Shown: positions 59,137-63,570 of the stretch, in pieces
Position numbering within the stretch: the first letter of the stretch is position 1
Layout: the number at the start of each line of letters is the position of its first letter
NCBI GenBank assembly: GCA_944327135.1
Contig: CALVGQ010000012.1
Coordinates: 1-64,000 of the forward strand
Direction of reading: 5' to 3'
DNA: 64,000 nt
From: an uncultured Erysipelotrichaceae bacterium
GTDB lineage: Bacteria; Bacillota_I; Bacilli_A; Erysipelotrichales; Erysipelotrichaceae
Translations under genes and position numbers: made by a program
The notes under the pieces: generated by a model
Databases searched by the model: none
What the model was told of the DNA's origin: nothing
What the model saw: only the letters and a program-made list of their open reading frames with translations

Positions 59137-60060
59137 CTATATAATGATATAATAAACCCATCTGAAAATCAAGAGGATTATTGCTAAAATTAAAAGCCAC
59201 GAAGTAAAAAAGGAGCGCCAGGCTGTTCCAGCAGCAACACTATGATGCCATAGCAGTTTCTTATTGCGATTGACACTCAATGCATACATCGAAACAGCAT
59301 ACGCCGCTACCGTCAGAACACCAAAAATCCAGCTATATTGTATCGGCAGAAGAAGCCCAATCACAATCATCGCATTGATGGCGAAATGAGTTATAAAAGA
59401 AGGCCAAATGCTTCGATAAACCATCGCCTGCAAAGACAAATACATGCCTAAAAACAGTATGACCAGCGGATAACCCTGATCCCAATATACTAGCATATAA
59501 AGCAACGAGCTGCTTATCATCCCAAATGTTCCACCAGCCCAACTGGTACAGCGTAAAATGACTCCACGAAAAACATATTCTTCCAGAAACGGAACCAGCA
59601 CTAAAAAGTAAAAAAGATAAAGAACAATCAGCCATGGTTCTGAAGAATGAAAAACTGGATGAATCGTTTCCGACAGCAACAAATTAGGGTTCAAAGCATA
59701 AGCAACACTGCTAAAAAGAAACGTCAGAAACAAGTAAAAAGCAATGCCGCCACAGGCCCAGGAAATCAAGGCACTCAGGTTCAGTCGAGCAATGCTGAAC
59801 AGCTCTTTAAAGCGGATTTTTAACAACAGCCGCACTAAAAGAAAAGGAGCCAGACAAACAATAAATTTTTCAGCAATTTCCAGCCCTAAGCTGATTGCCA
59901 GGGGATTCAAAGTTTGAAAGAAAGCATCCAATTTTTCCAATAAAAGCTTATTTTCCATCTGCAAGCCAAAAATCAATGTCCCCATGATCAACAGTCCAAG
60001 TCCGATCAGGTTAAATTGATTTCTCAGTTTTTTTCTGATAATCTTTTCCGATTGTTCCAT
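59137..60060 (-). CDS. CPBP family intramembrane metalloprotease
   Basis: 307 residues, about eight spans. CPBP (Abi) motif 1 FLEEYVFRG near 185 with the two Glu, and motif 2 ITHFAINA near 248 with His and Asn. Homologues process membrane proteins or, in bacteriocin loci, give self-immunity; no bacteriocin gene is seen here. The ATG at 60060 has AGGAGCG upstream; the frame to 60120 is not coding. Confidence 0.9.
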   Translation of the reverse strand: MEQSEKIIRKKLRNQFNLIGLGLLIMGTLIFGLQMENKLLLEKLDAFFQTLNPLAISLGLEIAEKFIVCLAPFLLVRLLLKIRFKELFSIARLNLSALISWACGGIAFYLFLTFLFSSVAYALNPNLLLSETIHPVFHSSEPWLIVLYLFYFLVLVPFLEEYVFRGVILRCTSWAGGTFGMISSSLLYMLVYWDQGYPLVILFLGMYLSLQAMVYRSIWPSFITHFAINAMIVIGLLLPIQYSWIFGVLTVAAYAVSMYALSVNRNKKLLWHHSVAAGTAWRSFFTSWLLILAIILLIFRWVYYIII

Positions 60061-60148
60061 TACTTCGCTCCTATCTGTATCGTATCCTGTGTTCACCGCA
60101 GAAACAAAAAAGTAAGTCAAAAATTCAACGATCTTTCTTTGATTCCTA

Positions 60149-60628
60149 CTAGATCCCGATTTCTTTTCGAATCAACGCAAGAAAGCGCTCCTGGTTGCTT
60201 TGAAATGGCTGCGGCTCAAAATGATTGATCTGCAGCAATGCGCTTTTTAGCTCTTCACGATTTTTACAAGACAAAATATAGCCTTTTTCACAAAAACTGT
60301 CAATTAATTGACATTGATGATCGTTGTGATGTTCTCCATACTGAGCCAGACGCGGAGAAGCAATGATTTTCTTTCCCATTTTTAAAGCTCCAACAATTGT
60401 CCCTGCTCCACCATGGGTAATAACTAGATCCGCCTCTTTCAGCAAAACATCAAATTCTTTCATATCGATATAATCAAAAATTTTCATCCGATCGCTTTGA
60501 AACTCAGTGTAGCCGGCTTGAACGATGACTTCTTCGTTCCAGTTCAGTTCCTCAAGAACACTTTCAAGCATTTCCAGTAATCGACGAAATGGTTTATCCT
60601 GTGTTCCTAGCGTCACTAAAATTTTCAA
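60149..60628 (-). CDS. Alg13/PssE-like glycosyltransferase subunit
   Basis: 159 residues. It opens MKILVTLGTQ and has the GT28 C-terminal signature ADLVITHGGAGTIVGAL near 67-83. It supplies the UDP-sugar-binding half of a two-part transferase. The start is TTG 60628, which gives the family N-terminus and has G6 upstream; a GTG three codons earlier is part of that SD. It overlaps the Alg14-like stop in a TTGA, so the two halves are made together. Confidence 0.9.
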   Translation of the reverse strand: MKILVTLGTQDKPFRRLLEMLESVLEELNWNEEVIVQAGYTEFQSDRMKIFDYIDMKEFDVLLKEADLVITHGGAGTIVGALKMGKKIIASPRLAQYGEHHNDHQCQLIDSFCEKGYILSCKNREELKSALLQINHFEPQPFQSNQERFLALIRKEIGI

Positions 60629-61095
60629 AAAATCCACCCCCCGACCACCGCCTCAGGATAAAAACGAAGCATCGTTTCCCACTGAACAATAAAAGTATCC
60701 GCAATCGGATAAATCAGTTTCCCTGCTTTTGTTGGCGTTTGACTGTTAGCAAACGTCTCTATCCAAATCACTTTCTTTTTAAAGAAATGAGCGATAAAGC
60801 AAAGAGGCACCGCAGTATGGGTCCCTGTTGTCACAATCACCTCAGGACGCAGAGAACAAAACAACAGCAATGATTTCAGCCAGTTAAACGCAAATTTGAA
60901 AAGGTAAGAAAACAAATGCTGCTTTGTGCCATAGACCAGATAATAAACTGGACAGTCCAGTTCCTCCTTCAGCTGGCTATTGGACTTTGTTTTTTCCGTA
61001 ATTACGACAGCTTCCACTTCCGTAAACAGCGGCTTCAGCTGAAGCAATTCTGTCAAATGACCGCCGCAGGATGAAATAAAAACTACTTTTTTCAT
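60625..61095 (-). CDS. Alg14/PssD-like glycosyltransferase membrane subunit
   Basis: 156 residues. N-terminal VVFISSCGGHLTELL (GGH acceptor-side motif) and VTTGTHTAVPLCFIAHFF near 95-115. It recruits the Alg13-like half to the membrane to extend a lipid-linked sugar. GAGGAG precedes the ATG. No polysaccharide cluster surrounds the pair, so the glycan is unknown. Confidence 0.9.
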   Translation of the reverse strand: MKKVVFISSCGGHLTELLQLKPLFTEVEAVVITEKTKSNSQLKEELDCPVYYLVYGTKQHLFSYLFKFAFNWLKSLLLFCSLRPEVIVTTGTHTAVPLCFIAHFFKKKVIWIETFANSQTPTKAGKLIYPIADTFIVQWETMLRFYPEAVVGGWIF

Positions 61096-61141: not shown

Positions 61142-63079
61142 TTATTTTAAACAATTTTTCACCAGCTCCAGTACTTCTTGTTCTGTACTGCAAGCCAACG
61201 CTTTTTCAGCCATCGCTTCCATCTCTTTCTTGGAGAGACGGCGAATCAAGCGACGAGTTCGCAAAATTGAAGTTGCCGACATCGAAAATTCATCCAATCC
61301 CAGGCCCAGCAGCAATGGAGCGGCCATTTCATCGCCGGCCATTTCACCACACATGCCAACCCATTTGCCTTCCTTATGAGCGCCATCGATGGTCATCTTG
61401 ACCAGACGCAGAATCGATGGATTGCACGGCTGATACAGATAAGAAACTTTTTCTGACATCCGATCTGCTGCCATGGAGTACTGGATCAGGTCATTGGTTC
61501 CGATTGAGAAGAAATCTGCTACTTTAGCAAATTGATCTGCCAGCACTGCTGCCGCAGGAATTTCAACCATCATACCAACTTCGATCTTTTCAGAAACCGC
61601 TGTTCCCTCTGCAATCAGTTTCGCTTTTTCTTCTTCAAAGATGCTCTTTGCTTCATTGAACTCATTGATCGTTGCAATCATCGGGAACATGATGCACAGC
61701 CGACCATAAATACTTGCTCGAATCAGCGCCCGCAGCTGAGTTCTGAAAATATCTTTACGATCCAAGCAAAGGCGGATTGCACGATAGCCTAAGAACGGGT
61801 TCATTTCCTGAGGAAACTCAAAATAATTCAGCTTCTTGTCCCCGCCGATATCCAAGGTACGTACAACAACTTTCTTTCCCTGCATATTTTCCAAAACTGT
61901 TTTATAGGCTTCAAACTGTTCATCCTCAGTTGGGAAATCGTGTTCACTGTCCATATACAGGAACTCTGTCCGATACAATCCAACGCCTTCTCCACCATTA
62001 TTCAAAACACCTTCTACATCTTTCGGCGTGCCAATGTTTCCCGCCAGTTCCACTTCATGGCCATCTACGGTTTCGCTCTTGGCATCCTTCAACACCTTGA
62101 GTGCTTCTTTTTCTGCCTTGAAGGCTTCCGCTTTTTGCGTGTATTCAGCAATCTGTTCAGCTGTCGGATTCAAAATGACCGTCCCTTCAATCGCATCCAG
62201 AATGATCTGATCTCCCTGTTTCGCCTGTTCCATGATCCCAGCTGCACCCACTACGGCCGGGATTTCCAGACTTCTAGCCATGATTGCACTGTGACTGGTT
62301 CTTCCTCCAATCGCGGTAGCAAACCCCAATGTAAACTGTTTGTTTAACTGCGCCGTATCTGATGGAGTCAAATCTTCCGCAACAATGACGACCTGCTCAT
62401 CAATCGTCGTCAGATCTGGAATTACCGCTCCAACAAGATTGCACTTCAAACGGAAAGTCACATCCCGAACATCTGCAGCCCTTTCTTTGAAATAGTCATT
62501 ATCCATGGATTCAAACATCGAAATCATCATATTAGCGACCGTCTCGGTTGCATATTCTGCATTGCAGCTTTCATTTTTAATCATCTCGATAATTTGACCC
62601 GATAATTCCGGATCGTTGGCCATCATCAGATGGGCATCAAAAATCGCCAGTTCTTCTTCTGACAGGTTTCCCTCTGCTTTCGCCTTGACCTGCTCAATAT
62701 CCGCCTGAGTTTTAGCCAAAGCGGCTTCAAATTTCTTAATTTCTTCAGTGCTGTCGCATTCTTTTTTCTCGATGTTTAAAACCGGCTGCTCCAGCTTGTA
62801 AACCTTTGCAATAGCAACTCCTGATGATGCTGCGATCCCTTTTAACATAGTTTTACCTCCCACTGAATCGATTGCGTCGATGATGTCTTGAACACAGCGA
62901 AATTCCAGCATTTCCTCATCCTTAAAAGCAATGTCCAGCTGTTCTTCAATTTTTACCAGAAGGTCTACCACATCCATGGAATCCAATCCAAGCTCCCGAA
63001 AGTTGGACTGCGGATGCACAGCAATCTTCAGCCGCATTTTCCTGGCAACCATTGAAAGAACAAATTCTGTGTGTTCCAT
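61142..63079 (-). CDS. ptsI: Acyl carrier protein - PTS enzyme I fusion
   Basis: 645 residues in one frame. Residues 1-77 are a complete acyl-carrier-protein domain with the phosphopantetheine motif [13 protein letters not shown] (Ser34). Residues 78-645 are a full-length PEP-protein phosphotransferase (enzyme I, 568 residues): [17 protein letters not shown] start, phospho-His263 in [32 protein letters not shown], and MCGEMAGD near the end. There is no stop between them, but GGGAGGT lies seven bases before Met78, so enzyme I alone may also be made. It starts 31 bases after the upstream small gene. No HPr gene is in the window. Confidence 0.93.
62846..62861 (-). promoter_or_regulatory. Internal ribosome binding site at the ACP/enzyme I junction
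   Basis: On the minus strand GGGAGGT (62861-62855), then seven bases, then ATG (62848-62846), the exact start of a normal-length enzyme I. The SD is read as Gly-Gly codons of the fusion. Spacing is ideal. Confidence 0.75.
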
Positions 63080-63110
63080 CTCTCCACCTCACTTATGATG
63101 ATAGCATTTT

Positions 63111-63440
63111 TTAAGCATGTAAGCAACGCAAAAATTTATCGACTGCCTGAACTTTCAGGCGGTGGTAGGTGCTTCTTGAAAAGTACTCCAAATACCATTG
63201 CCCTTCTTTAGGATGCATGTAATCATAGCGGATGATCTTTCGCTCATCCTGCGTCAGTTCTTGCAAAGCATCATCCACCAACATGCAAGTTGTCTTATCA
63301 TAACGATAGATTTCAAAGTTTTCCCGGACGCTGTCACAGATTTCATAGCGATGGATCCGATTTGACGACTTGCGATAACATTTCATCAGATAACGAACTA
63401 TTTGTTCTTTCTGCTGAAAAGAAAGATTTTCATCAAACAT
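63111..63440 (-). CDS. MG284/MPN403-like small protein
   Basis: 109 residues from ATG 63440, chosen for GGGAGGA nine bases upstream; the frame stays open to 63542 without a good start. Helical, with IHRYEICDSVRENFEIYRYDKTTC, ALQELTQDERKIIRYDYMHPKE and the closing WYLEYFSRSTYHRLKVQAVDKFLRCL. This pattern matches what I know as the MG284/MPN403 family, found in Mollicutes and Erysipelotrichia; function unknown, with a sigma-region-4-like feel in the last 50 residues. It lies directly upstream of the ACP-enzyme I gene and is probably co-transcribed. Confidence 0.72.
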   Translation of the reverse strand: MFDENLSFQQKEQIVRYLMKCYRKSSNRIHRYEICDSVRENFEIYRYDKTTCMLVDDALQELTQDERKIIRYDYMHPKEGQWYLEYFSRSTYHRLKVQAVDKFLRCLHA

Positions 63441-63570
63441 CTTTTCTGTCCTCCCGTTTATATATACGCAGTCAGAAAAACATTCCTTCTTCATTTTGAA
63501 ATGCTTCTCAAAAAAGTTACCCGTCGACAAATAGTCAGGCATGTTTTAAAATAGATTTGGAGGTTTTTTT

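Follow-up and report, generated by a model that had tools for sequence, protein, structure and literature searches.

The window, the whole 64,000-nucleotide stretch of DNA that was analysed, carries on its minus strand a gene in which an acyl carrier protein (ACP) is joined in frame to enzyme I (EI) of the sugar phosphotransferase system (PTS). The fusion is more general than first noted, being present in ten genomes from two clades of the family. The gene would most likely give rise to two products, the long ACP-EI and free EI, as judged from sequence and conservation. We regard it as fairly probable that the gene has two products and that the ACP is a working accessory domain of the longer one. 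The features of the locus are as follows.

61,142-63,079, minus strand: ACP-EI fusion gene of 645 amino acids with an ATG start and the stop codon at 61,142-61,144 (open reading frame and profile matches).
62,849-63,079, minus strand: ACP domain, amino acids 1-77, with four predicted helices (PF00550, 53.3 bits for the domain alone; AlphaFold2 model).
62,978-62,980, minus strand: codon of Ser34, candidate phosphopantetheine site in LGLDSMD (sequence; Ser in 40 of 42 EI-linked ACPs).
62,894-62,896, minus strand: codon of Cys62, the residue preceding predicted helix 63-73 (all 10 fused EI-linked ACPs have Cys here, as do 2 of the 32 unfused).
62,855-62,861, minus strand: internal Shine-Dalgarno sequence GGGAGGT, also coding part of Val-Gly-Gly (sequence and duplex energy).
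62,846-62,848, minus strand: internal ATG, Met78, the start of EI (sequence).
61,145-62,848, minus strand: complete EI of 568 amino acids; His263 of the fusion is EI residue 186 (profile matches).
63,084-63,089, minus strand: Shine-Dalgarno-like AGGTGG for the ACP start (sequence).
63,111-63,542, minus strand: gene of the MPN403/MG284 family, 31 nt upstream of the fusion (NF045770, 9.2e-21; a relative lies upstream in 110 of 139 loci).

The frame on the minus strand runs without a stop from the ACP (77 amino acids) into the EI (568 amino acids). PF00550 covers amino acids 6-70 and scores 53.3 bits for the domain alone and 48.7 bits for the whole protein against a gathering score of 20.8; PF05524, PF00391 and PF02896 cover the EI part, all above their cut-offs, and the EI profile TIGR01417 reaches 774.9 bits (cut-off 341.7) over amino acids 79-641. 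These four Pfam domains are the only ones in the chain at E≤0.001, with no GAF, HPr or IIA domain among them. The ACP equivalog TIGR00517 is not reached (42.0 versus 70.45 bits). TSHSA, with its His at residue 263, and GMCGEMAGD, from residue 575, are taken by us to be the phosphorylatable His motif and the catalytic Cys motif of EI. The AlphaFold2 model of the fusion (mean pLDDT 83.4, pTM 0.66) places ACP helices at residues 3-15, 34-48, 54-57 and 63-73, with Ser34 of the DS motif where helix 34-48 begins; because the last ACP helix ends at 73 and the first EI strand is modelled at 78-80, the linker would comprise about four residues. Among the solved structures, 60 of the 61 matches listed, no chain spans both ACP and EI: the chains are EI or related enzymes from residue 78 on, or ACP to residue 74. 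The 50 Foldseek matches listed comprise EI, pyruvate phosphate dikinase, PEP synthase, pyruvate kinase and one citrate lyase. In the window genome (96.36% complete, 117 contigs) nothing but the fusion matches PF00550 or, at full length, ptsI; one 893-aa frame, 27-33% identical, accounts for the two further ptsI matches.

The initial annotation had described the in-frame fusion and proposed a search for EI with an N-terminal ACP in relatives. Of 272 genomes of the family searched, 267 had a match, and 139 ptsI loci, one per genome, were fetched from the better matches listed and examined. About two dozen further places listed for the family lie outside this set, and none of them looks fused, since their matches begin at query residue 69 or later. 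An ACP stands directly upstream of ptsI in 42 of the 139 loci, fused in 10 and separate in 32; 95 have no ACP before ptsI and two had too little upstream DNA. The acp-ptsI pair is a widespread neighbourhood in the family, and in the 32 separate loci acp overlaps ptsI or lies within 25 nt of it (gaps of -8 to 25 nt). EI does not need an ACP in the 95 loci that have none before ptsI. ACP counts and trees are based on the ACP stretch of the match to a hidden Markov model whose seeds were picked by the DS motif; the search itself was run without that requirement and recovered two ACPs without the Ser. A mixed alignment of separate ACP and EI rows was left out, its ACP rows being only 11-25% identical to the window. 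As a separate observation, PF00550 was matched at E≤0.01 in only 167 of the 272 family genomes (100 of 152 good ones), and many bacteria of the family may live without any ACP.

Five fused genomes belong to genera g1 and g21 (the window genome G000 in g1; G020, G242, G243 and G244 in g21) and five to g31 (G079, G091, G095, G096 and G132); both clades also hold unfused members. A fusion unique to the window genome is ruled out by the nine further genomes with the same uninterrupted architecture, which together with the open reading frame and the Pfam and TIGRFAM matches bears out the fusion as first described. An assembly or sequencing error at the junction could be entertained for a genome in 117 contigs, but the ten genomes are fused with different junction sequences; with nine other genomes of this architecture such an error is no reasonable explanation, and its probability is practically nil. 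In a class-wide sample of 395 genomes, of which G000 was the sole member of the ten fused genomes, a profile of the fused N-terminal 150 residues found uninterrupted ACP plus EI only in G000 among the matches listed. In a protein search of plasmid entries 460 records matched, of which the five listed hold EI only, starting at query residue 78 or 79. A limited literature search of titles and abstract beginnings found no ACP-EI protein.

The junction in the window reads GTG GGA GGT AAA ACT ATG, so that the reported GGGAGGT is indeed there, its GGAGG lying 7 nt ahead of Met78. All ten fused genes retain GGAGG ahead of the EI ATG. At the internal start of the window, pairing with the anti-Shine-Dalgarno core has a duplex energy of -11.5 kcal/mol; over the ten fused genes it ranges from -10.2 to -11.7 kcal/mol, and medians at the EI ATG are -10.3 for the 32 unfused loci and -10.2 for the 95 loci without ACP. 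As background, 3232 in-frame Met codons elsewhere in these EI genes have a median of -1.7, and only two of them are as strong as the weakest fused internal site; the internal start signal is far beyond chance. The ACPs of G242, G243 and G244 have diverged to 62-72% identity, yet the Shine-Dalgarno sequence and Met are kept, which points to selection for free EI.

The MPN403/MG284-like gene lies upstream of ptsI in all 10 fused loci, in 31 of the 32 with a separate ACP and in 69 of the 95 without one (110 of 139 in total). The simplest reading is that the ancestral order was likely MPN403-like gene, acp, ptsI, with many losses of acp. The acp stop of several unfused relatives overlaps or adjoins the ptsI Shine-Dalgarno sequence, e.g. 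TTAGGAGG in g35, so that fusion is one small change away. In L124 (G090), L157 (G133), L167 (G138) and L029 (G005) acp runs 7-8 nt into the start of ptsI in a different frame, an arrangement intermediate between the separate and the fused state. The initial annotation held that close relatives with a clear stop at the same place would speak against the fusion. Such relatives exist, G252 and G253 among others having one in-frame stop (one TAA and one Ile codon precede the EI ATG), but other relatives are fused. Loss of the stop codon with internal initiation kept, one of its two suggestions, is well supported by the unfused coupled pairs and by the strong Shine-Dalgarno sequence and Met in all ten fused genes.

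On the EI tree of the 42 ACP-bearing loci the fused state requires five changes, three of them forced by well-supported branches, and unfused relatives stand within and between the two fused groups, G090 and G099 being unfused inside that of g31. A tree of 101 of the 139 loci (all 42 with ACP and 59 of the 95 without) also requires five changes, two of them forced. With at least five changes of the fused label on the EI tree, the fusion is easily gained or lost. On the most parsimonious reading it would have arisen at least twice. A single early gain followed by many losses may be set against this, but the linker is not the same in the two clades, nor is the reading phase of the Shine-Dalgarno sequence, which is GGA GGx in g1/g21 and AAG GAG GAx in g31. 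The recurrence of the fusion hints at an unexplored link between ACP and EI.

The ready interchange also bears on whether the long form has any use. The stop may have been removed neutrally by a small indel or substitution and hidden by strong internal initiation, leaving a long form without a special role. Many unfused relatives have their stop only a few nucleotides away from the EI start, close relatives switch between the fused and the unfused state (G090 and G099 within g31; G252 and G253, one TAA from fusion), and the internal initiation signals are intact in all ten fused genes. The long protein may be made in small amounts or go unused. Selection on the ACP speaks against neutrality. 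In six close fused pairs dN/dS of the ACP is 0.05-0.34, and that of EI 0.03-0.07; the ACP evolves faster than EI, but its ratios lie well below 1 and indicate that the fused ACP is under purifying selection and not a relic. Three species of g21 keep the fusion although their ACPs are only 62-72% identical, with dN/dS of 0.25-0.34, and a cysteine at one position tracks the fused state in two clades. We consider neutral stop loss unlikely, albeit the most credible of the alternatives. The putative functional link between ACP and EI that the initial annotation had suggested is favoured by recurrence, purifying selection and the fusion-specific Cys.

The cysteine is window residue 62, which is Cys in all 10 fused ACPs and in the 32 unfused ones Thr (17), Ser (12), Asn (1) or Cys (2). 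The last two are G252 and G253, whose position beside g21 on the tree is moderately supported; a stop may have been regained in them. When all ACP and EI columns were scanned, the next best residue marked 7 of 10 fused and 3 of 32 unfused rows; among 266 comparable characters (carried by 8-16 rows, with at least three changes on the tree) Cys62 is by a wide margin the best match to the fusion. Codon 62 uses both TGT and TGC, so the amino acid is kept and not the DNA. The association was spotted in the alignment of the fused proteins and counted in those same data, and in independent pairs on well-supported branches Cys62 goes with fusion 3 to 0 (2 to 0 in some random pairings), too few for a p of 0.05. 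On the reading of an accessory domain, Cys62 would be an adaptation to the tethered state.

In a tree of 67 ACPs, a branch with support 98/98 separates 22 of the 23 other ACPs, among which are E. coli AcpP and ACPs of genomes that have a FabF-type synthase, from the 42 EI-linked ACPs; two stand-alone ACPs from the neighbouring family f2 side with the EI-linked ones. The exception is the ACP of G254, which pairs with the EI-linked ACP of G004. The alignment has 81 columns and the tree several long branches, and its finer structure is unsure. Some genomes with a full-length FabF-type synthase, e.g. G007, G033 and G067, keep both kinds of ACP. The fused ACP as a carrier of fatty acid synthesis is ruled out by its separate branch and by the lack of a detected ketoacyl synthase in the window genome, where no FabF-type enzyme was found with PF00109 at E≤0.001 or at E≤1. 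FabF-type matches above 100 bits occur in 9 of the 32 genomes with a separate EI-linked ACP (G285 having a fragment only) and in none of the 10 fused ones. Short FabF-profile matches of about 27 bits in frames of about 400 amino acids in g31, some of them over the family cut-off, are taken to be putative thiolases. Profile search detected no PlsX in the window genome, and PlsX was above the cut-off in none of the ten fused genomes, two of which are only 69% and 80% complete, and in 13 of the 50 genomes tested overall.

The phosphopantetheinyl transferase profile PF01648 was matched above its cut-off in 32 of the 50 genomes tested, including four of the five fused genomes of g31, the exception being G079 (69% complete). 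Transferase loss as the cause of the fusion is ruled out by these four. With PF01648 and an in-family Sfp profile, both at E≤10, no credible transferase was found in eight genomes, the window genome G000 together with G020, G242, G243, G244, G252, G253 and G151; G244 has one sub-threshold match, which contains a stop. The in-family profile was built from eight divergent Sfp-type proteins and is aimed at enzymes of that type; it recovers those of G282 and G034, which were outside the training set, misses the PF01648 match of G067 and finds that of G096 weakly. At its cut-off, PF01648 on its own overlooked the Sfp-type enzymes of G007 and G282, and a very divergent enzyme could escape both profiles. 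Small divergent Sfp-type phosphopantetheinyl transferases are encoded at L074 (G007, below the Pfam cut-off), L067 (G019) and other loci.

With no ketoacyl synthase, PlsX or transferase detected in the window genome, its ACP may carry no acyl group at all. The suggestion that the fusion links acyl-group status to sugar phosphorylation is doubtful in the window lineage for the same reason. The phosphopantetheine Ser is kept in 40 of the 42 EI-linked ACPs. It is replaced in two unfused ones, by Glu in L150 (G099) and by Asp in L168 (G118), which are possible pantetheine-free forms. Ser34 and the Asp preceding it are invariant in the ten fused ACPs, and all eight genomes in which no transferase was detected retain the Ser, which speaks for its use. 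A live acyl or aminoacyl carrier whose transferase was missed, with the tether tying acyl charge to PTS flux, would have in its favour this conservation, PF01648 above the cut-off in four of the five fused genomes of g31 and the limited sensitivity of the profiles. Its standing suffers from the eight genomes, G000 included, in which both profiles found nothing credible at E≤10, and from the fused genomes having no PlsX above the cut-off and no full-length FabF, and we hold it to be quite improbable. On a further and rather unlikely reading, what was once a lipid carrier would in this family now regulate or anchor EI, with no phosphopantetheine arm in the window lineage. Cys62, acquired with fusion in two clades, would then be a new functional thiol (redox switch, acylation or partner bond) controlling the long form, with free EI running ordinary sugar uptake.

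For the dual-product gene with an accessory ACP, the following course is envisaged. A closely coupled acp-ptsI pair behind an MPN403/MG284-like gene would have lost its separating stop at least twice, so that one frame would yield the long ACP-EI and the kept internal ribosome-binding site and Met the free EI of 568 amino acids. As in the EI family, either form would pass phosphate from PEP to the sugar phosphotransferase system. The ACP, which has no part as carrier in fatty acid synthesis, would act as an accessory domain held to the N-terminus of EI by the linker of about four residues, and the tether may change the activity, location or partners of the long-form pool. Related species offer a natural experiment, in which the same two genes are found apart, overlapping, one stop codon apart or fused, with a residue that tracks the fused state; this opens a link between an ACP and EI, the enzyme at the head of PTS sugar uptake, to direct testing. 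The case also prompts one to ask what role an ACP has in bacteria in which no fatty acid synthesis, PlsX or recognised phosphopantetheinyl transferase is detected.

ACP-EI is an enzyme I with an extra N-terminal domain. In Caulobacter, according to PMC4848567, glutamine inhibits autophosphorylation of EI-Ntr via its GAF domain. Both enzymes have an extra domain at the EI N-terminus, but that of EI-Ntr is GAF and that of the fusion, which has no GAF match, is an ACP with a putative regulatory role. Multiphosphoryl transfer proteins combine IIA, HPr and EI domains in one chain, as described in PMC2405797, and likewise place EI within a multi-domain polypeptide; their partner domains are PTS phosphocarriers, which the ACP is not. 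In the main text of that survey 'acyl' occurs 0 times (PMC2405797). With stand-alone ACPs the domain shares the PF00550 match, the DS motif and four predicted helices, but it is fused to EI, falls below the TIGR00517 cut-off and stands apart from the ACPs of fatty acid synthesis. Regulation of E. coli SpoT by ACP, cited in PMC4848567, shows that an ACP can act on an enzyme of nutrient signalling; the target there is another one and the ACP is not fused.

The neighbourhood of ACP and the MPN403/MG284-like gene recurs outside the family. In three of nine f2 loci, one of them by a weak match, such a gene immediately precedes a stand-alone ACP of the EI-linked type. With a profile trained on the window's family, which may miss distant members, it was seen in 0 of 13 loci of other families and in 0 of 16 loci of the other ACP type in the window's own family. 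MG284 of Mycoplasma genitalium presumably lies near the ACP gene MG287. On the downstream side the fusion is adjoined by a PssE/PssD-type split glycosyltransferase pair (60,149-61,095, minus strand), and a CPBP-type (Rce1-like) membrane protein is encoded at 59,137-60,120.
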